DNA from: Terebella lapidaria
Taxonomy: Eukaryota > Annelida > Polychaeta > Terebellida > Terebellidae
DNA: 64,000 nt
Assembly: GCA_949152475.1 (NCBI GenBank)
Contig: OX424555.1
Span: 97,001,515 to 97,065,514 of the forward strand
Direction: 5' to 3'
Made by a program: the position numbers and the translations under genes. The notes beneath the pieces are model-generated. The model had not been told where the DNA came from and made no database searches. It worked only from the letters and a program-made list of their open reading frames with translations. Positions 3,395-21,534 of the stretch are shown in pieces; within the stretch, counting starts at the first letter, position 1, and each line of letters starts with the position of its first letter.

Positions 3395-3985
3395 AGAAGA
3401 AGCAGCACTCCGGAGCAGCACTGCTGGTGTTTTCGGACATCATCGGAGATGGCAACAATGCAATGCTACTCATTCTCCCTGACCTCAGCGCTGCTTTTGA
3501 CAGTATCTCTTACATCCAACTTATCAACCGTCTTCACTTTGATTTTTGTGTGTCAGACACCCCATTGTCCTGGTTCAGGTCATACATTGATGGGCGTACT
3601 CAGCGGGTAAATTCCCCAACCACAGCGTACCTCAAGGCTCCGTGTTGGGGCTGAGTCTGTTTTCAACCTAAACCATATTTGCAGTTCTCGCAGGTGTTTA
3701 ATCAACGCGGTATGTTGGTTGAACACCTGCCGGTCACGGCTGAGTAGATTTCTGTATGGTTTAAAATAGAGAAACCTCTTCGAGTAACAGGGAGTCATTC
3801 AACATAGTCTCGGGCTGCCGCCCTCGACCATGTTAAATAACCTCCTGTACAACTCCGCTAAATAACATCATCAACAACTTTGGTATCAACTATCACAAAT
3901 ATGCTGATGACTTGCAATTGTATGTGGCAATCGATCGCAACCACCACCTCAGCAGAACAAATGCATATAATGCTATGTTTCACTA
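3395..3985 (+). pseudogene. LINE (non-LTR) reverse transcriptase fragment, copy 1
   Basis: The open frame reads LLVFSDIIGDGNNAMLLIL, then DLSAAFDSISYIQLINRL and LSWFRSYIDGRTQRV, which are the fingers and palm of CR1/Jockey-type reverse transcriptases (the DLSAAFD aspartate is catalytic). YADDLQLYVAID follows at 3899-3934 in a different frame, carrying the YADD active-site motif. A roughly 180-bp palindromic insertion (about 3655-3865) separates the two parts. There is no endonuclease or 3' end, so this is an internal relic without function. Confidence 0.75.
3669..3763. repeat. Nested inverted repeat inserted within the LINE RT relic
   Basis: Outer arms TAAACCATAT (3669-3678) and GTATGGTTTA (3754-3763) enclose inner arms GCAGGTGTT (3690-3698) and AACACCTGC (3722-3730). 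It interrupts the RT reading between the conserved V-L-G turn and the YADD segment. The same structure is at 6076-6170 in the second tandem unit. It looks like a small fold-back element inserted before the duplication. Confidence 0.5.
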
Positions 3986-11615: not shown

Positions 11616-12860
11616 GGGGCATAATGTAACTGTAAGAACAAAACACGGTGTTGGGGAAATACTGCCAGGAAAATCAGTATACATGATATTGTGTCCGATG
11701 ATTTGCATCACCACATTTTAACAAGCCATGATGCATTGTTGTCATGTACTCCACCTTCCCGTTTCAGATGTTCGTATGCGGCATTCAGCGACTAGACAAC
11801 TAGTCATCACGTGATGTGCTTCACATTCCACAATGTGTTCGAATGAACATGTATATCGCTCTCTATCACATTCTCATGTTGAATAGTGTCTTTCACTGTA
11901 AGATAATATGGAGCATTCGGACAGACATACAACACGATGAGAGTGTTTGTTACCCATATGGACAATTGGACACTTCGACCTGACGCGCATGTCAAGTTCT
12001 CAAACTATGCATGTAATAAATTCACAAAACACACTCATCAAATTAGCAACATATTTTCAACAGGACAATAGGATATAATATATTTGTTGTCAATTCCCAC
12101 ATTTTAAAATAAAAGTATACACAATTGTATAGTATTTTTCGCGGGCTCAATACTAACCCAAAGTTTTAATCGATTCTTCTTAGCGCTGTGCTAAATCCGA
12201 ACGATGGGGACTTTACCAATTGTTCTTTGTTCAATCAAAACGATGAGGGTCAATGACACTTTCAAACACCAAAATTACCCAATCGATTAAGTAGTCCTAT
12301 TAGTCCAATATAGTAAAGTTGAGATCCAGTCAAAATGAAAAGTGTCTTAACTTTGACGTATGAGATTCAGGCAGTGTTCACAGCATATTGATATCTTAAT
12401 CCGGTGAAAAGTTATGGCGAGAGTTGTGTATTCATGAAGACACACCAGTACTTCAAAATGATTACACAATACTCTTTGAATGTTTACCTTTCTAGCACGT
12501 TTCGGGTTTAAACAACTAACTATTTTGTTGCATTTAGCATAAAACATGATCAGAATTTATTAGCCTAATGGCGTCACCAACCAGCCCAAGATATTACCCT
12601 TATTGCCTAAGATATAGGTGGTTGCTATGGCCCTAAACCTGATGAATATGAGATTTTTTCATGAAAAACATAACTTGCATGTCTTTCATGTGAAAGATAA
12701 AAGAAATGACTTGCCATCATGATATCACTTCTCAGTTACGAGTAACGGTCCTAACAACAGCGTTGTTATGGTTCGTATCTAAAGAGTGGTTGCTATGGCG
12801 AATGGACCCAAAGTGACTCGGCATCATAATATAACTAATGTAAACAACTATAGTGGTGTT
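11616..12860. other. Intergenic, no gene recognised
   Basis: AT-rich sequence between the inverted-repeat cluster and the P-like transposon. The minus-strand ORFs at 11,807-11,995 and 12,347-12,547 have no recognisable content. Confidence 0.4.
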
Positions 12861-12867
12861 GTGTCAT

Positions 12868-12975
12868 CATAGACCTGAAGGAGAGGGATAGCCGACTGTG
12901 ACGTCACTCACACTATCTGCAGTTTGCGTATCACAATTATTTGGGGGCGCCCCCATCGGTCGTCATAGAAAACTG
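12868..12975 (+). repeat. Left terminal inverted repeat of the P-like element
   Basis: Outer 26 bp perfect (12,868-12,893), a diverged middle, then GCGCCCCCATCGGTCGTCAT and the next nine bases (12,947-12,975) matching the right end at 27 of 29 positions. Confidence 0.85.
12899..12906. promoter_or_regulatory. CRE-type palindrome TGACGTCA
   Basis: Perfect consensus for CREB/ATF-type bZIP factors, 157 bases upstream of the ATG of the THAP gene and absent from the homologous right end. A promoter role is inference; an 8-base match can arise by chance. Confidence 0.3.
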
Positions 12976-13062
12976 ACATTCCTCATTTATCGCCCACAAG
13001 GTCAACATAAACAAGTGGTTCGTCTTTTGATATTTCGTTGGATTTCGTTTATATTCGTTTTC

Positions 13063-16000
13063 ATGGGTGGTGACCATTGTTGTGTTGTCGGATGTCACAA
13101 CAATGGTATTAAAACTAAAGGCACGGGTGTCAGTTATGTGAGATTCCCGAAGAAAGGCGTGAGCCAGATCCAGGATTCATGGAGGGCTAAACTGATAGCG
13201 GTCGTAGCCAGATGTGACAAAAGCTTCAACCCGGACACCATGAAAATCTGCACCACGCATTTTGAGCGTACATCCCTGCTATTCCATGGTAAGAAAATAA
13301 TAACTCAAAGTAGATTTAGTTGTCGACAGGTACTTGCATCAGGAGATAGAGATAATGAAGCCTACAGCTATTCAATGTACCACAATGACATAATACAGTC
13401 TACGGTAGCTATACATTTTGATAATATGTTTAGTATAGCATATTTAATATAACCATGAGGAAGCAGCAATTAATTATCGGGTTAATTTGAGTTTACTTCT
13501 GACAACTAGTTTAAATTACCGGTAATATCGCACCCCCCCCCCCCCCCCATCAATAAAATTCACAGGTGGTGGTTTTAAGTTAGTCCCTGGCAGTCTACCA
13601 ACGTTGAACATGCCCCAAAAGAGTATTGTTACACCACAGCCAATACCTAGACAGATGCCAGTGAGATATATTTAAGAGAATAATTAGCATACAATATTTA
13701 TTTCAGATACATGTGCTGTTTGTTGTTTTGTGAGTTCACTTCCCATGTTCATATTTTGCCTTCCACATTTTAACTGTTGTGTTTTAGCTGTATTCAAACA
13801 TGATTAAACATATTATATATTTCACACAGATTTCTACAAGATTTTAAAAACTAGACGATTGTCCGAACTTTGTTCGAGGGATACAATTATTAAACAGATA
13901 AAAGTCTCCTAATCACACTTCACAAAAGCCTGTTGCAAGTATCGTTGCTATATTGTCATGAAACATCTACATGTACATACAACATTAAGTTTCTATCTGT
14001 ATTGTCAACATGTTCAGTGATATAGGGTCATAACAAAAATAGCATACCATTATCATACTTAATTTAGTGACATTCATTTATTTTCTGACAGAAAGTAAGG
14101 CCCCCTCCAGTAGTACCAGAGAAGGTCAGCTACTACAACCTGGATGAGGTGCGGCGTGATGCGGCGGCAAATGCTGGTCGATGGACGGTGTTGAAGTCAT
14201 CCGAGTCTATCCTAGTATTGGGGTTGTACGAGCATGATCATGGGCAACTGACGAGAAAAGTTACCATCAGAGATGATTTGAGCACTTTGGTCAATTTTGG
14301 AGGTAATGATATGGTAACAGATATGCAATATATGAAATAATATTACATTTTCCTTTCTTTATATTATATGGGCGATACAGAAACAAAGTCATTCACATTC
14401 ACAGTATTTTTTATGACTATACATGTAATCTAGATGTAGTTATATCATTATGAATATCAATTCAAAGTTTCTGTAGGTAGTATCTATCAGGCAGGCATTG
14501 TTCACAAAATATATAATAGTGATCTTATACTACATGTACAATCATTTGTCTTTGCACAACATACACCTTTTGCTTTGTGATGTTTAAACAACCTTGTCAT
14601 TTACAGAGGTAACAGTGAACAGAAGCTGGTGTCTTGAGAAGCAGCCCCTCAAGATCTTTCTGCGCTCTGTCGACGACCTTCGTAAATGTGATGGCATTTG
14701 TGATCCACGCTTCCAAGACCTCCACTGTGGGCAAGCTTACAGATTCCTGAGTACAATCATCAGTGATGGCAAGCCTGTCTCAACATCAGTGATGCGGTCT
14801 AAGTCATGTGAAGGAGCCGTGACAGCAGATCACTCTCGATGTCCCCCTTGTGAAAAACTACTTGCAGTGATGGAAGGTTTACACAGTGGCTCCCAATCTC
14901 AACCAGTCACAGTTCACCCGAAGACGCCATTGTCAAATTTGTCACGTCAGCAACTGGTTCGCGAAGTCAAAACAAGTAGGGCTAAAGTCCAGAGCCTCAA
15001 ATCGAAGATCAAGTCTTTGAATATCTCGCTGCATGGGGTGGCCGTGTCAACAGAAGTCAGTGAAGGGCTTACCAGCGTCATCGACAATCACATTGACAAG
15101 GAAAATGAGATGATGTCACTCTTCTGGAGCGAACAGAAGAAAGCTTTTTCATGCCACACAAATGGTATGAGATGGCATCCCATGATGATCAGATTTGGGA
15201 TTTTCCTCCACTATCACAGTTCTCGTGCCTACGATGCTCTACGTGAGTCCGGTGTGTTACGACTCCCAAATAAATCAACACTCAAGGACTACACCAATGT
15301 TATCCAACCCCGTGCTGGCTTCCAGCCACATGTATTCAAGGTAATTTTAGTGACTGTACTAGAGTGTTAGGATGCAGGCATGTAATGGACTAATTGTCCA
15401 TGGAACATCTACAGTAACATACTAACACTGATGAAAAAACATCAAAAACTATTGTGTATTGATCCAGTAAGTAGTATTCCTTATTGAAAATCCATAATAT
15501 GCCATATGTCACACTACAGGAACTTCAACAGCAATGCTCCAGTCTACCTGAGGACAAAAAGTTTGTAGCCTTACTACACGATGAGATGAAGCTCCGGTCT
15601 GACCTGGTCTATGACAGAAGGAGTGGCGAGGTGGTGGGTTTTGTTAACCCAGCCAGTTGGACCTTCGACAAGGTATGTACCACATATAAATATCTTGAAA
15701 TTAATTCTACTGGATTGCTTTTGAAGATACTTGGACTTTTTCGCTCCATACACACTATTAGTGACGGTGGCATGATATATTATTGCAATTTGTTGCAGGA
15801 TCTGTGTGATGAAATTGCATCGTACGTCTTGGTCTTCATGGTCATCGGGTTAAATAGCCATATAAAGATGAGCATCGGGTACATCGCGACAAAGACTGCG
15901 ACTGGTGGCGAACTTTTTCCTCTCATGTGGAAGGCGGTATCGTACCTGGAAATCGTCTGTGGTCTCAAGGTATAGACATGTTCCATGTGATATGTGTACA

Positions 16001-16742
16001 GATATATAAATAAATTTATTTCAAAGTATATTTATATTAAATTTGTTGTAGGTGATTTCCTCAACTAGTGATAAAGGATCACCTAATATGAAGCTGTACA
16101 AGCTACACAAGCTGGCACACAATGAACCAGGCACCATCACCTACAAGGCTCTCAATCGCTTCGCCCCAGCCGATGAGCAGAGATACCTGTACTTCATCTC
16201 CGACCCACCTCATCTCATTAAAACGATACGCAACAACGTGCAAAAATCCCAACCCGGTGGAACGAGATATCTATGGGTAATATGGATATTTTGTTATGTT
16301 CATTGTTCTTGTGCAATAATACATGTAAATCCTCCACTAAAATGCCAAAAAAAAATTGTGCAATTTTGTCATGTTCTCCACTGTCATATCAAACTGACAA
16401 TAAATTTAATTACTCCTTCACTTTTTTTCAAGAACCAGGACAAGTACATTTTGTGGTCTCATGTGTATCGTCTGTACTCGGATGACACGAGCAAGGAGCT
16501 TTACCGAACCAAACTGACGTACGACCACGTAAACCTTACGCCTTCGTCTACAATGAGTGTCCGGCTTGCAGCACAGGTAACATTCAACTGTAACTTTGAA
16601 CGATATACATAAGTGTTAGTAGAAATGAGTATGTTTTTTTTTTTCTCAACAAATATATTTATGTACCTTATATATTTGTTCACAGTTATCAAGAAAACAA
16701 GTTGCGGTTGCAGCGCAGCCTGGCCTTCAAGTTCACTCCTAA
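13063..16742 (+). CDS. THAP-domain P-element-like transposase, N-terminal and catalytic half
   Basis: Exons that join in phase with GT-AG junctions: 13,063-13,288; 13,566-13,660; 14,092-14,302; 14,607-15,340; 15,520-15,672; 15,799-15,969; 16,052-16,276; 16,433-16,576; last exon from 16,686. Residues 1-75 are a THAP zinc finger (C6/C7, C11, W40, C63-T-T-H66), a DNA-binding domain typical of P transposases and THAP9. KLVPGSLPTLNMP follows, then a coiled-coil stretch (about 14,955-15,040), LLHDEMKLRSDLVYD (first catalytic aspartate region), VGFVNPA, ISDPPHLIKTIRNN (second acidic motif before the GTP-binding insert) and LTPSSTMSVRLAAQ. The product stops soon after, where related transposases continue. 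In phase 0 the last exon gives only 18 residues (stop at 16,740-16,742). Another frame of the same DNA, to 16,818, encodes GGKRKVV and KKLKRH, which look like a basic C-terminus, so the end is unresolved. AATAAA lies at 16,978. Start chosen at the THAP methionine. Confidence 0.8.
13533..13548. repeat. Poly-C run, 16 bases, in intron 1 of the THAP gene
   Basis: Mononucleotide tract just upstream of the acceptor of exon 2 (13,565). Length is likely to vary among individuals and may affect the acceptor. Confidence 0.7.
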
Positions 16743-16818
16743 AGGGAACACGAGCAGTGGCGGGAAGCGCAAGGTGGTAATCAGCCACAGCCCAATCAAG
16801 AAACTAAAGCGACATTGA

Positions 16819-17465
16819 ACGATATACATAATAGAAGGAATTTTGTGAATCTGAAACCGACGTCATGATGAATAACACATTTTTTCAAGTTTTAATGCAT
16901 GCTATGATTGTTGTTTCTGCCATATTGTGTGGAGATTGTCTGTGGAGATTGTCTGCAAATTTCATAACAATTCTCAGAATAAAAAAGGGCCTACAAGAAT
17001 CCTCATGTCTTGATGTTTACATGATTGTGTGAACTGACTCCACCTTGAGCTCTCTGCAAGGATATTTTGTATTCAATATCAATTTGCGAACCTTGTTTCC
17101 AGAGTATCACTGAATATCTGTTTCAGTTCTGATTGTATAAATATTGTCTCCAGCCTAAGTAACTGAAGCAGTTATTTTGTCATCCATGAACTTAAATGTT
17201 ACATGTAAGAAATCTATATGTTGTCATGCATGAAATGTTGTCTGAATAACTATTCAAGTAATTTGTGAGACTGTTCATAAAATGTTCTTCTGGACCAGTG
17301 ATCTGCATTGAAATTGTTACTCATTTTGGTAATCTACTGTGGACATTCACCGGTACTGTGTGTCATACAGCGTACTCTATGTAAAATAAACATCATGAAA
17401 TCAATTGGTGTAGTCCTGTAATAATTTGATGAAATCAATTTGCCTTTGTCTCGGTTTGATGAAAT
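16819..17465. other. 3' flank of the THAP gene, no further gene
   Basis: AT-rich untranslated or spacer sequence inside the P-like element, with AATAAA signals at 16,978 and near 17,384. TTTGATGAAATCA-type motifs repeat at 17,426-17,470. No extra transposase exon was recognised here on the plus strand. Confidence 0.5.
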
Positions 17466-17548
17466 CATTTATTTATGTCACTTCACATCACATATTGTGA
17501 TATACACCGGTAATCACAATATGTGATGTGAAGTGACATAAATAAATG
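17466..17548. repeat. Perfect palindrome with 36-bp arms
   Basis: The left arm 17,466-17,501 and right arm 17,513-17,548 are exact reverse complements around an 11-base loop ATACACCGGTA. It lies between the convergent genes and ends 23 bases before the 5' junction of the inserted PLE (17,572). It may be part of the transposon, or an inverted copy of target DNA made when the PLE inserted. Confidence 0.9.
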
Positions 17549-17571
17549 ACATAAATAAATGATGTCGGTTT

Positions 17572-19201
17572 CAGATCCCGTGGTTACTAATAGTTTGTTG
17601 AAACTTCAAGAAAGGTTCGTCATTGTCCCTGCAGATAAAGCTTCTAATAATGTTGTTTTTGTTTGTAAAACATACTATATACAGTGCCTGTTTGACGAAC
17701 TGGGTATTGCCAACAATACTAATTCCAATAGTACATACCAAGCCATTACCGTGCCCAAACAGGATATCTTATCAAATCATTTGTCTGTATTGCATTCGTT
17801 TGGTATTACTACCTCATGTAAAGATTCTAATCTACCGAACTTATATTGGATCCCAAAGTTGCACAAAAATCCACACAAACAAAGATATATTTCAGGTTCA
17901 GCATCATGTTCTACCAAAGCCCTTTCTAAAATATTAACTACTATATTGTCTAAAATTAAACAGGGTCTCCAAAAGTACTCTGAAACCATCTATTCTAGAA
18001 GTGGTATAAACCAAATGTGGATATTAAAAAATTCCAAATCTTTATTGGAATATCTACATTCTCACACACTTTCAAAAGTAACGTCTATCAAAACATTTGA
18101 TTTCTCCACTTTGTACACAACTATACCTCATTCTGAACTGAAATCTCAGCTTAAAAAACTAATCAATATTTCATTTTTCTCTAAAAAGGGACAACGTCGG
18201 TACCACTATATTGTAGTTAAATATAATACCGCTTATTTTGTTAAAGGCGACTCTGATGCCCCATACAAATATACTGAAATAGATGTGGTAAATATGGTTA
18301 ATTTTCTGATTGATAATATTTTTGTGGAATTTGGTGGTCGAATATTTCAACAAACTATTGGTATTCCCATGGGTACAAACTGTGCACCATTATTGGCAGA
18401 CCTGTTTTTATACTCATATGAATCAGATTTTATCCAACATTTACAAAGAGGAGGTTCTAAGAAACTAACATGTAATTTTAATTTCACTTTCCGATACATA
18501 GATGATGTATTGTCGCTAAATAATCCCAAGTTTGGTGATTATTTGGATGTCATATATCCTAAGGAACTTGAAATTAAGGATACTACAGAATCCGCTAATT
18601 TTTCCAACTATCTAGACCTGAGGTTGGAGATTGATAATGATTCTAACCTGTCAACTAGATTATATGACAAACGTGATGATTTCAATTTTTCCATAGTCAA
18701 TTTCCCTTTTCTAAGCAGCAACATTCCTATGTCACCGGCATATGGTGTGTTTGTTTCTCAACTTATACGCTATTCCAGAGCTAGTTGCAAATATGAGGAC
18801 TTTGTCTATCGAAGTGCCCAGCTAGTCTCTAAACTGCTACGACAAGGATATGTTTTACCAAGACTTATCGCTGCATTTAAGAAATTCTATGGACGTCATC
18901 ATGATCTGGTTGATAAATACAGCAAATCCATGTCTGCCATGCAACTAGATCTATTTTCATGTTAATTTTGGGGAATTCATGACGGGTGCCACTAGTGGGG
19001 CAGGAAATGCTCACTCTTTCCGGAACACCTGATTTCACCTCCTGATGGCCATTTACGGGGGTTCATGAGTTTCCCTGTCATTTTTTTTTTCTCTCACTTC
19101 GTATGCCTGATATGACTTTCTGTCCCCGGACTATGAGATTGGATAACGGACCCTGTTTTGTTTGCTCGGAATACTTGATACTGGGTATTGATTCCACGTC
19201 T
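17572..19201 (+). mobile_element. 5'-truncated Penelope-like element with open RT domain
   Basis: Begins at GATCCCGTGGTTAC, which corresponds to position 41,859 of the full PLE, and ends at the usual GATTCCACGTCT. An uninterrupted reading frame to 18,963 carries the whole RT: VPADKASNNVVFV, TFDFSTLYTTIPHSELKSQL, GIPMGTNCAPLLADL and FRYIDDVLSL. The GIY-YIG part is missing. It differs from the 40-kb copy at only a few codons (for example KTYY for KAYY, QTIG for QAIG), so insertion is recent. The first in-frame ATG (17,559) lies in flanking DNA and is probably not meaningful. Confidence 0.9.
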
Positions 19202-19353
19202 AATACAAGTGCCCACTAAGTCACTAGGTATCAGTTTCAACTTGCATTTATTCAAAGCTTTCTATTTATTGACAAATAAACATATCCGAAACAAGTAGTA
19301 CACCATCAATCTCCTGATAATATTATGGTAACACCAACACACATGATGATTCA

Positions 19354-20777
19354 TTAGTCATCTTCGGCTTTAGTAACACTCTTTCGCAAAGCCTTTTGTT
19401 TCTTAACTGAGTTCGTTTTCTGAGATCGAATTTCTAAAAACTGCCTGCATTTCGCATGGCACCTTAAATGGAAATAGAGCTGCAATACAAACAACAAAAC
19501 CGTCTCTTGAACGTCGGTCTCCACGCTCGAGTGATAGGTACAGGCATAAAATAGTGACACAATATCATCCCTGCTACAAATTGTATCAATAAACGCCTGT
19601 AAAGAAACCTCAATAAATGAGAATTGTTCTCTGAAAACTGACTCGCACAATACAAAAAATGATTTCATGTCGACTGTTGGTTCACATAATCCTCCTCTTG
19701 TTTTGGCAAGAATTAATTTGTTTGTGAACATTTTCTCATCACTGATCATCATTCTTGAGATAATAGGTGATTGTGGAAATTTATGCTTACATCGGAATAA
19801 AACAAAACCCCCAACATATACAACAATGTCCCGTTCATCATCTGTGATTTCAGCAGGAGACGAAGGTGTACATGGGAGCTGTCTGAAGTTGATACGGATG
19901 AGAGTTTCCATGGCTTGGAAGGCGATGAGAGAGGACAGTTGTGGATGATTCAGTAAGGTGTTAATAGAGGGTACGATCTGTTCCAGGGCGCGATGAAATT
20001 CTCCCCACGTCTTCTCTATGCATGATGGCGAGAATACACCTTCGATGATGCATTCGTTGAGTGGTGATAATTTCACCAACAGTTCATCCACTGCAATATT
20101 CATAGAGAAATATACTACATATTTGCAAATGAAAAAAAATACAACACGATATTTTGATATCCAGCTAGCAGAAAAAATACATGTCATATATCTTCGCTCA
20201 CCATTGACAAATGAGAGCACATCTTCAACACTAAATGGTGCCAGCTGCAGGACTGGATCATTGCTGACATCTCTGAGGATCTCTTGCAGCGTATCATTTG
20301 TCAGTGTCTTCTTTGGGGGTGGTTTAGGGAGAGTCGCACGTGAACTTTTCCTCTTACGTCGATTATCTGTTGACTTACTGCCAGACTTGGGTGAGGAAAC
20401 CTGCCCCTGGTCCTGGTCATTTTGTATGGCAGCTGGCACCAGGTCATTGATACTATCATCTCTTTTGACCTCCTCAGTGTCCAGTTGCTGGAATAAAATC
20501 AAGAGGAATAACACTAAATGGGCATCCAACTGCCCGTTCAGATCAAATGATGTATCATATTACAGATCTGGATGTATCTCGACGCAACGACAATAGCAAT
20601 CCAAGCTAATAAACACCCTATTATCGCCCAAATCACCCAGTTGTCAAGATCATTTAACAAGACTCAAACTTCCCATCATCACTGAATACAACACAGAAAT
20701 ATAAAAATATGCCTTTATATTATAGCAGAAGGTGTTCCTACCTGAGAAGCCAGGAGTAGATCGTCGTAAATGTCCAT
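19354..20777 (-). CDS. Second gene of the P-like element: C-terminal transposase-like protein
   Basis: Three exons on the minus strand join in phase: 20,777-20,742 (MDIYDDLLLASQ), 20,487-20,202 and 20,090-19,354, giving 352 residues. The frame is open further upstream to 20,924, but that ATG lies outside the transposon, so the ATG at 20,777 is preferred. The N-terminal part is acidic and lysine/serine-rich (NRRKRKSSRA, a possible nuclear signal). The C-terminal half has LTEDE-like ITDDERDIVVYVGGFVLF and TRGGLCEPTVDMKSFFVLCE. I associate these with the region after the GTP-binding insert in THAP9/P-type transposases (YVxGY..., RGGL...P). TTTATT at 19,264 on + gives AATAAA for this strand. The gene points toward the THAP gene. 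It could instead be an accessory protein. Confidence 0.65.
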
Positions 20778-20820
20778 TTCCAAAAACCAAACAAAAACGA
20801 ACCGTGCATGGGGGAAACCC

Positions 20821-20913
20821 CAGTTTTCTATGACGGCCGATGGTGGCGCTGTGCAAACAGCCACATATTTCCCGCCATTCACCAGTTGGCTATCCCTCTC
20901 CTTCAGGTCTATG
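20821..20913 (-). repeat. Right terminal inverted repeat of the P-like element
   Basis: Reverse complement starts CATAGACCTGAAGGAGAG, identical over 26 bases to the left end, with a second block at 20,849-20,821. It is followed outside by GTGTCAT (20,914-20,920), the copy of the left flank. Confidence 0.85.
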
Positions 20914-20920
20914 GTGTCAT

Positions 20921-21365
20921 GCATACTCTGTCTTACAAATATGAAATTTTACTGATAATTCAAAGACGTGTAATTCAAAGACGTAATAACATACAGTATT
21001 ACCTATAAATCGGCTGTTAACTAGTAGATTCTCGTTACTTTCCGAGGCGAAAATTCGGCAGTGGTCATGCGTTATGATTGAAACCCCAACACGCAAATAT
21101 ATTTACAGCCCGCATTTACGACGTAAATACTTCATAACAGCCCAGCAGTCACGTGATCTGATATAGCATAGCACATCAGGCAAGGATATTAATGAGGTTA
21201 GCAGTAAACATTGATTTGTACCAGCAATGTATGTTTGATGTGTTCTTGAAGTTATGTTTACCGGTAATTCTGGCCTCGTGATGTAACCTGGAAGGTAATA
21301 AATGATGTTTGTTGACTACTGTGTTTATCTCCTTGTAGACCAATTGATATAGGTAATAATAGTAA
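20921..21365. other. Spacer, no gene
   Basis: AT-rich, with a short direct repeat GTAATTCAAAGACGT near 20,955-20,985 and TTTACAGCCCGCATTTACG near 21,100, which recalls the fold-back element that follows. No coding content seen. Confidence 0.4.
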
Positions 21366-21534
21366 TAATATGTTTTTGGCGGGCGTAGTGATTATTTACG
21401 GCCCAGCTCAGATTATTTACAGCTCTCCAAGGTTTTGCAGCCCTCACAAGCTCGGGCTGCAAATGAACCTTGTCGGGCTGTAAATAATCTGAGCTGGGCC
21501 GTAAATAATCACTACGCCCTCCAAAAACATATTA
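21366..21534. mobile_element. Fold-back element, 58-bp arms
   Basis: Arms 21,366-21,423 and 21,477-21,534 are reverse complements with a single mismatch (GGCGGGCG against GGAGGGCG). The 53-base centre is itself a looser hairpin (AAGGTTTTGCAGCCC against GGGCTGCAAATGAACCTT). There is no coding capacity. High arm identity suggests a young insertion. Confidence 0.85.

Follow-up and report, generated by a model that had tools for sequence, protein, structure and literature searches.

A P-superfamily transposon lineage in Terebella lapidaria with a transposase probably divided between two convergent genes

Introduction

Among the enzymes of DNA transposition the P transposases serve as a model, and they have been described as single chains. 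Here we analyze a P-like DNA transposon at positions 12868-20913 of a 64,000-nucleotide stretch of the genome of the annelid Terebella lapidaria (assembly GCA_949152475.1, contig OX424555.1, positions 97,001,515 to 97,065,514, forward strand; "the window" denotes this whole stretch). The element carries two genes that face each other, a plus-strand gene for a predicted catalytic core and a minus-strand gene for a putative relative of the C-terminal domain (CTD) of P transposases. From the sequences of this element and its relatives, we consider it probable that they form a lineage of P-superfamily cut-and-paste transposons in which the transposase consists of two polypeptides, made from two convergent genes.

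For the Drosophila P transposase, three residues are listed as catalytic (D230, D303 and E531), the linker is described as disordered, and the CTD occupies an inter-subunit position in the complex, contacting both transposon and target DNA (PMC7776569). Transposition requires the full 87-kDa form; a shorter form of 66 kDa, from which the C-terminal third is missing, is a repressor (PMC7776569). In the open-access literature, covered by titles and the starts of abstracts, we found no P element with a separate CTD gene; as Repbase, like subscription papers, lay outside this scope, a catalogued precedent is possible.

Results

Two convergent genes within one mobile element

The window element is a DNA transposon and has, as the initial annotation had proposed, a pair of terminal inverted repeats (TIRs) with a 7-bp target site duplication (TSD). 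The TIRs are 31 bp long and agree at 30 of 31 positions, and the TSD, GTGTCAT, is exact on both sides (Table 1). The inward-facing minus-strand gene with the motifs YVGGFVLF and RGGL was likewise recovered, as an open gene of three exons and 352 residues. Copies, exons and CTD genes were searched for in the species' own assembly (761.6 Mb in 438 contigs). Six further copies of the window element were found, with 98-100% identity over the first 2 kb, and five of them (on contigs C16, C14, C15, C2 and C3) are full length, with both ends, all exons and the same two convergent genes. Four of these are 7.27-7.28 kb long; the C3 copy (L052 and L009) measures 10.2 kb because of a 2.87-kb insertion within the intron between exons 9 and 10, which leaves both genes intact. 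For the sixth copy, on C8, the right TIR was not seen in the stretch examined, and this copy was left out of splicing. A 716-aa open frame (L053, 2617-4767, plus strand) adjoins it on the side of the missing right end.

The exon models were drawn from open frames, splice signals and conservation. All five full-length siblings splice to an uninterrupted plus-strand coding sequence of 854 residues (12 exons, with GT-AG at 11/11 introns), and their minus-strand coding sequence, of 352 residues, is likewise uninterrupted (3 exons, with GT-AG at 2/2 introns). Each of the two genes starts near its own TIR. The copies with both ends, namely the five siblings and the window copy, have exact 7-bp TSDs in 6/6 cases, and as these are all different, the window family has moved recently. 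An Rfam scan of positions 12000-21500 gave nothing at the gathering score.

The predicted catalytic core on the plus strand

The predicted plus-strand protein contains a THAP domain (PF05485, 34.8 bits against a cut-off of 23.9), the N part of an RNase H fold (RNaseH_N, PF21787, 107 bits) and a GTP-binding insertion (PF21788, 54.6 bits), the latter two also above their cut-offs. The P-element helix-turn-helix (HTH) domain (PF12017, cut-off 23) scored 25.1 bits with the exon query and 22.9, just below the cut-off, with the near-complete query. Alignment of the protein of the intact copies to chain 6p5a_A of the P transposase places the Asp of TSDKGSPN on D303 and the Glu of QDPLE on E531. This Glu sits in the plus-strand exon QDPLEEHFGRHRG, which is present in all five spliced copies and deleted in the window copy, and the residue is invariant in 9/9 aligned sequences (L010 and eight relatives). 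The HDEMK motif, which we take to be the D230 motif, lies inside the PF21787 match, and the alignment to 6p5a_A begins downstream of it. In these predicted proteins the alignable catalytic residues are all on the plus strand. About 70 residues follow the E531-equivalent Glu before a conserved basic tail, which reads SPLKKIKRH in several families; a stop codon lies within 0-3 codons of the tail match at 39/39 loci with this tail, several of which are one copy counted twice.

In the initial annotation the THAP gene stops after the motif LAAQ, and the final part of the transposase, with its acidic residue, has moved to the convergent gene. The early stop is real in the window copy, where exon 8 ends at 16576, because this copy has lost about 950 bp; the intact copies continue through exons 9-12. 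The proposed move is borne out for the post-catalytic CTD, by profile homology and by recurrence (see below). It does not extend to the catalytic Glu, which stays on the plus gene: as the residue is on the plus strand in the intact copies, its apparent transfer is an effect of the deletion. That the minus-strand protein supplies the Glu in trans, as the absence of the E531 exon from the plus gene of the window might suggest, can be given practically no credence, because a catalytic Glu on the minus gene is refuted by the 6p5a_A alignment, by the invariance of the residue and by the plus-strand exon in 5/5 spliced copies.

The minus-strand protein and the CTD of P/THAP9 transposases

The relation of the minus-strand protein to P/THAP9 C-termini that the initial annotation had suggested was found for its family. 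Alignment A1 comprises 15 relatives including the window protein, to which the other 14 members are 25-43% identical. Against the PDB (177,635 sequences) the A1 profile gave a single match at E<=10, namely 6p5a_B, the chain of the P transposase CTD (E 0.0015 for the whole sequence, 0.052 for the best stretch alone). Three of the 15 members match Tnp_P_element_C at E<=1, and L055, one of four members rescanned singly, passes the cut-off of this family (8e-5). In an hhalign comparison with a profile of canonical CTDs, made from the same-strand elements of the own genome and the Drosophila piece, the minus-gene family reached a probability of 97.5 with an E-value of 8.1e-12 over 137 columns, and 97.0 when the Drosophila row was left out. 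As controls, 60 column shuffles gave a maximum probability of 0.9 and a minimum E-value of 0.061, and the reversed profile gave 0.1. On these profiles, the predicted minus-strand protein is homologous to the CTD of P/THAP9 transposases; its gene bears extra N-terminal sequence.

A PDB search with one canonical CTD returned nothing relevant. The viral and GTDB collections held no confirmed relative, which says nothing on the distribution in animals, as these are virus and prokaryote collections.

Convergent layout across the genome

Among the matches listed, 76 of the 79 rows for the last catalytic exon have a CTD gene within 12 kb, and all 76 pairs are convergent, with no same-strand and no divergent case; of the other three rows, two have an opposite-facing CTD at approximately 16 kb and one has no CTD near. 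Viewed from the CTD side, 77 of 131 matches have a catalytic exon within 12 kb among the matches listed, again always convergent. Pfam RNaseH_N, as an independent marker, gave the same orientation: 28 of its 150 matches have a split CTD within 9 kb, and 28/28 are convergent. The four farthest members of A1 (L054-L057) include three with a convergent catalytic exon, and L057, with none among the matches listed.

The genome of T. lapidaria holds both architectures, so that its canonical elements provide an internal control. Known CTD families gave 23 matches (18 THAP9_C and 5 Tnp_P_element_C). Two of these, both Tnp_P_element_C, are split-type genes, and the other 21 (18 THAP9_C, 3 Tnp_P_element_C) all lie on the same strand as an RNase H match and downstream of it. 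Approximately 100 of the 150 RNase H matches are without either kind of CTD nearby among the matches listed, and other kinds of P-like element therefore remain unclassified. P-type RNase H was also seen in single frames of ~700-820 aa (C8:13366192, C43:37243, C3:37000394), with no recognised CTD within 9 kb among the matches listed; these possibly represent a third architecture.

Since the convergent split occurs at dozens of loci, including those of divergent families, it is an architecture in its own right rather than the accident of a single copy. A reading of the window layout as a fluke of a single damaged copy was rejected on the same recurrence and on the intact siblings. The opposite strands would also be accounted for if trans-splicing or a programmed inversion joined the CTD to the core, making the final enzyme a single chain. 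We found no support for such joining and regard it as highly improbable, given that the minus gene, with three exons, is equipped with a start codon, splice sites and a stop of its own, that the plus gene is likewise closed by a conserved tail and stop of its own, and that no inverted configuration is present among the 76 pairs.

Mobility and constraint in other families

Ends were searched for at 18 loci of other families. TIRs together with an exact 7-bp TSD were found at four of them, namely L016, L021 and the pair L018 and L020, both from one family; no such combination was found at the 10-kb loci L017 and L019, and the remaining loci are short stretches. In the CTD gene, divergence at the three codon positions is 0.51/0.395/0.668, indicating protein-level constraint.

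The canonical same-strand elements of this genome (18 THAP9_C and 3 Tnp_P_element_C loci) could in principle mobilize the two-gene elements as non-autonomous passengers, the split then being a decaying by-product of single-chain P/THAP9 elements. The constraint on the CTD argues against this, as do the 5/5 spliced copies in which both genes remain open and every splice site is retained, and the reach of the split-type CTD genes to ~25% identity to the window protein; we therefore judge the passenger scenario very unlikely.

Structure of the window copy

Relative to its six siblings, the window copy has lost ~950 bp between element positions 3730 and 3745. This deletion removes exons 9-11 and thereby breaks the plus gene; the minus gene, in contrast, is intact and open. 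At the junction lies a 15-bp filler that is identical to sequence ~220 bp downstream, and this templated filler suggests interrupted repair after excision. The window copy also contains a 1.7-kb retroelement insertion that none of the six siblings has; at the start of the retroelement, 37 bp of the flanking target recur in inverted form, and the retroelement is probably 5'-truncated. The window copy is thus a non-autonomous derivative in which the plus gene lacks exons 9-11, a retroelement has inserted and the minus gene is preserved. Its products would be the complete CTD protein and, at best, a shortened core.

The reverse transcriptase (RT) frame at 17559-18965 was rejected as a part of the transposon, being missing from the six siblings and belonging to a separate high-copy element; a PDB search with it returned nothing relevant. 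Among 2490 candidates, 40 near-identical copies of the retroelement were scored, including that of the window. Some copies stand in tandem with a spacing of 3,348 bp (contigs C9, C17 and C6), which we take to be reminiscent of Penelope-like elements.

Table 1. Coordinates of the transposon, its two genes and its lesions in the window
Feature	Positions	Strand	Basis
Left TSD, GTGTCAT	12861..12867	.	
Left TIR, 31 bp, 1 mismatch to right TIR	12868..12898	+	
Plus exon 1, start codon, THAP domain	13063..13288	+	Pfam THAP, exon model
Plus exon 2, end of THAP domain	13566..13660	+	Pfam, exon model
Plus exon 3	14092..14302	+	exon model
Plus exon 4, P-element HTH domain	14607..15340	+	Pfam PF12017, exon model
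Plus exon 5, RNase H N part, HDEMK motif	15520..15672	+	Pfam PF21787, exon model
Plus exon 6, RNase H N part	15799..15969	+	Pfam PF21787, exon model
Plus exon 7, Asp aligned to D303	16052..16276	+	PDB alignment, exon model
Plus exon 8, GTP-binding insertion domain, ends LAAQ	16433..16576	+	Pfam PF21788, exon model
Deletion junction, 15-bp filler identical to 16817-16831	16598..16612	+	
Plus exon 12, codes for the basic tail (final residues KRH) and the stop; window copy: not in frame with exon 8	16686..16818	+	
Retroelement insertion, open RT frame 17559-18965 (RVT_1)	17507..19202	+	sibling comparison, Pfam
Minus exon 3, CTD with YVGGFVLF and RGGL, stop	19354..20090	-	profiles, exon model
Minus exon 2, basic stretch NRRKRKSS, DPVLQL motif	20202..20487	-	exon model
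Minus exon 1, MDIYDDLLLASQ, start codon	20742..20777	-	exon model
Right TIR, 31 bp	20883..20913	-	
Right TSD, GTGTCAT	20914..20920	.	

Discussion

A putative two-subunit transposase

The functional enzyme of these elements is probably assembled from two proteins. Beyond that, the layout inclines us to see a large P-superfamily lineage in which the transposase would be an obligate heteromer: its catalytic subunit would lack the CTD, which an activator subunit encoded by another gene would supply. Subunit A, the 854-residue product of the plus gene, would provide the THAP and HTH domains, the GTP-binding insertion and an RNase H core that bears the catalytic acidic residues. On the precedent of the 66-kDa repressor and the active 87-kDa form of Drosophila P, we propose that A alone is a CTD-less core that may bind and pair the transposon ends, resembling the repressor, and that the minus-strand protein, subunit B, would complete the active complex in trans. 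The two subunits would enter the nucleus separately, and the basic stretches predicted in both could be nuclear signals. B would then join A non-covalently in the synaptic complex, contributing contacts to transposon and target DNA. A break at the linker could leave both parts foldable, and convergent genes would permit independent control of the activator, as a counterpart of the splicing switch by which Drosophila P adds the C-terminal part.

The minus gene might also encode a CTD-derived regulator, with the plus-strand protein transposing alone and the free CTD modulating its activity, for example by competing for the interface. Such a role would fit the extra N-terminal sequence of the CTD gene, the repressor function of a truncated P protein in Drosophila (PMC7776569), and the divergence in nine families, where the CTD differs at 56-72% of residues and the last catalytic exons at 21-42%. 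We nevertheless think it unlikely. In the P complex the CTD contacts transposon and target DNA, and transposition is catalyzed by the full 87-kDa form alone (PMC7776569). A CTD gene adjoins 76 of the 79 catalytic exons among the matches listed, and at every locus with the conserved tail (39/39) the plus gene stops with no CTD encoded, so that an element without the minus gene would lack a CTD.

Several results weigh against the two-subunit transposase or limit the evidence for it. The window minus-strand protein alone has no Pfam match and is among the 12 of 15 A1 members without a match to Tnp_P_element_C at E<=1; its hhalign probability against the canonical CTDs is 47.5 (E 2e-4) compared to 97.5 for the family, and the CTD homology is therefore a family-profile result. 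A single-sequence AlphaFold model of the CTD has a low predicted local distance difference test score (pLDDT 37.8). The 79 rows are not 79 independent cases, as many are sister copies of one family, and 54 of the 131 CTD matches are without a catalytic exon within 12 kb among the matches listed. Within families, the ratio of non-synonymous to synonymous divergence (dN/dS) is 0.18-1.69 in 17 pairs and uninformative, with 259 further pairs at dS > 1.2 or saturated. Co-divergence of the two genes was not detected (mirror-tree r 0.15, with 1447/5000 permutations as high), and all evidence is from one genome.

If the two-subunit transposase is real, a DNA-contacting domain has been placed on a separate gene and kept there through large divergence, which would make the P transpososome modular and offer a natural test of the function of the CTD. 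The layout also suggests an alternative on-switch for such an element, which would express a second subunit rather than add the C-terminal part by splicing.

Comparison with known systems

The lineage is assigned to the P superfamily by its predicted catalytic domains and departs from it by its chain composition: a P-superfamily transposase has the CTD in the same polypeptide, and here the CTD is present on a separate, convergent gene. The Drosophila P 87-kDa transposase (6p5a/6pe2) shares the THAP and HTH domains, the RNase H fold with its GTP-binding insertion and the aligned D303 and E531, and Drosophila P likewise has 31-bp TIRs and internally deleted derivatives (PMC7776569 for the P side). 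In contrast, Drosophila P has its CTD in the same chain, TSDs of 8 bp instead of 7 bp, and four open reading frames in 2.9 kb, compared to 12 + 3 exons in ~7.3 kb here (PMC7776569).

The canonical THAP9-type elements of the same genome and zebrafish Pdre2/zfTHAP9 possess the same catalytic domain families and a homologous CTD. In the former the CTD is downstream on the same strand in 21/21 cases, whereas the split elements are convergent; the TIRs of Pdre2 measure 13 bp and its TSDs 8 bp, and in zfTHAP9 the CTD belongs to the single chain (PMC10983969). Galileo, a P-superfamily element of Drosophila, resembles the present lineage in its mostly 7-bp TSDs, but has long foldback-like TIRs and has its THAP domain and its catalytic residues on a single predicted protein (PMC4168063).

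A second protein is also encoded by KolobokP, another DDD/E transposon, but this is a homing endonuclease and not a part of the transposase (PMC9587614). The closest published arrangement that we encountered is the RAG1L-RAG2L pair of RAG-like elements, where two convergent genes lie within one TIR element; the proteins are different and the TSD is 5 bp (PMC7204232), compared to the P-family Pfam domains and 7-bp TSD found here. RAG2L would be an added partner, whereas in the T. lapidaria elements a domain of an ancestral single chain appears to have been separated. A RAG1/RAG2-like gene arrangement would then have been reached by another route, through the separation of one protein rather than the addition of a partner.

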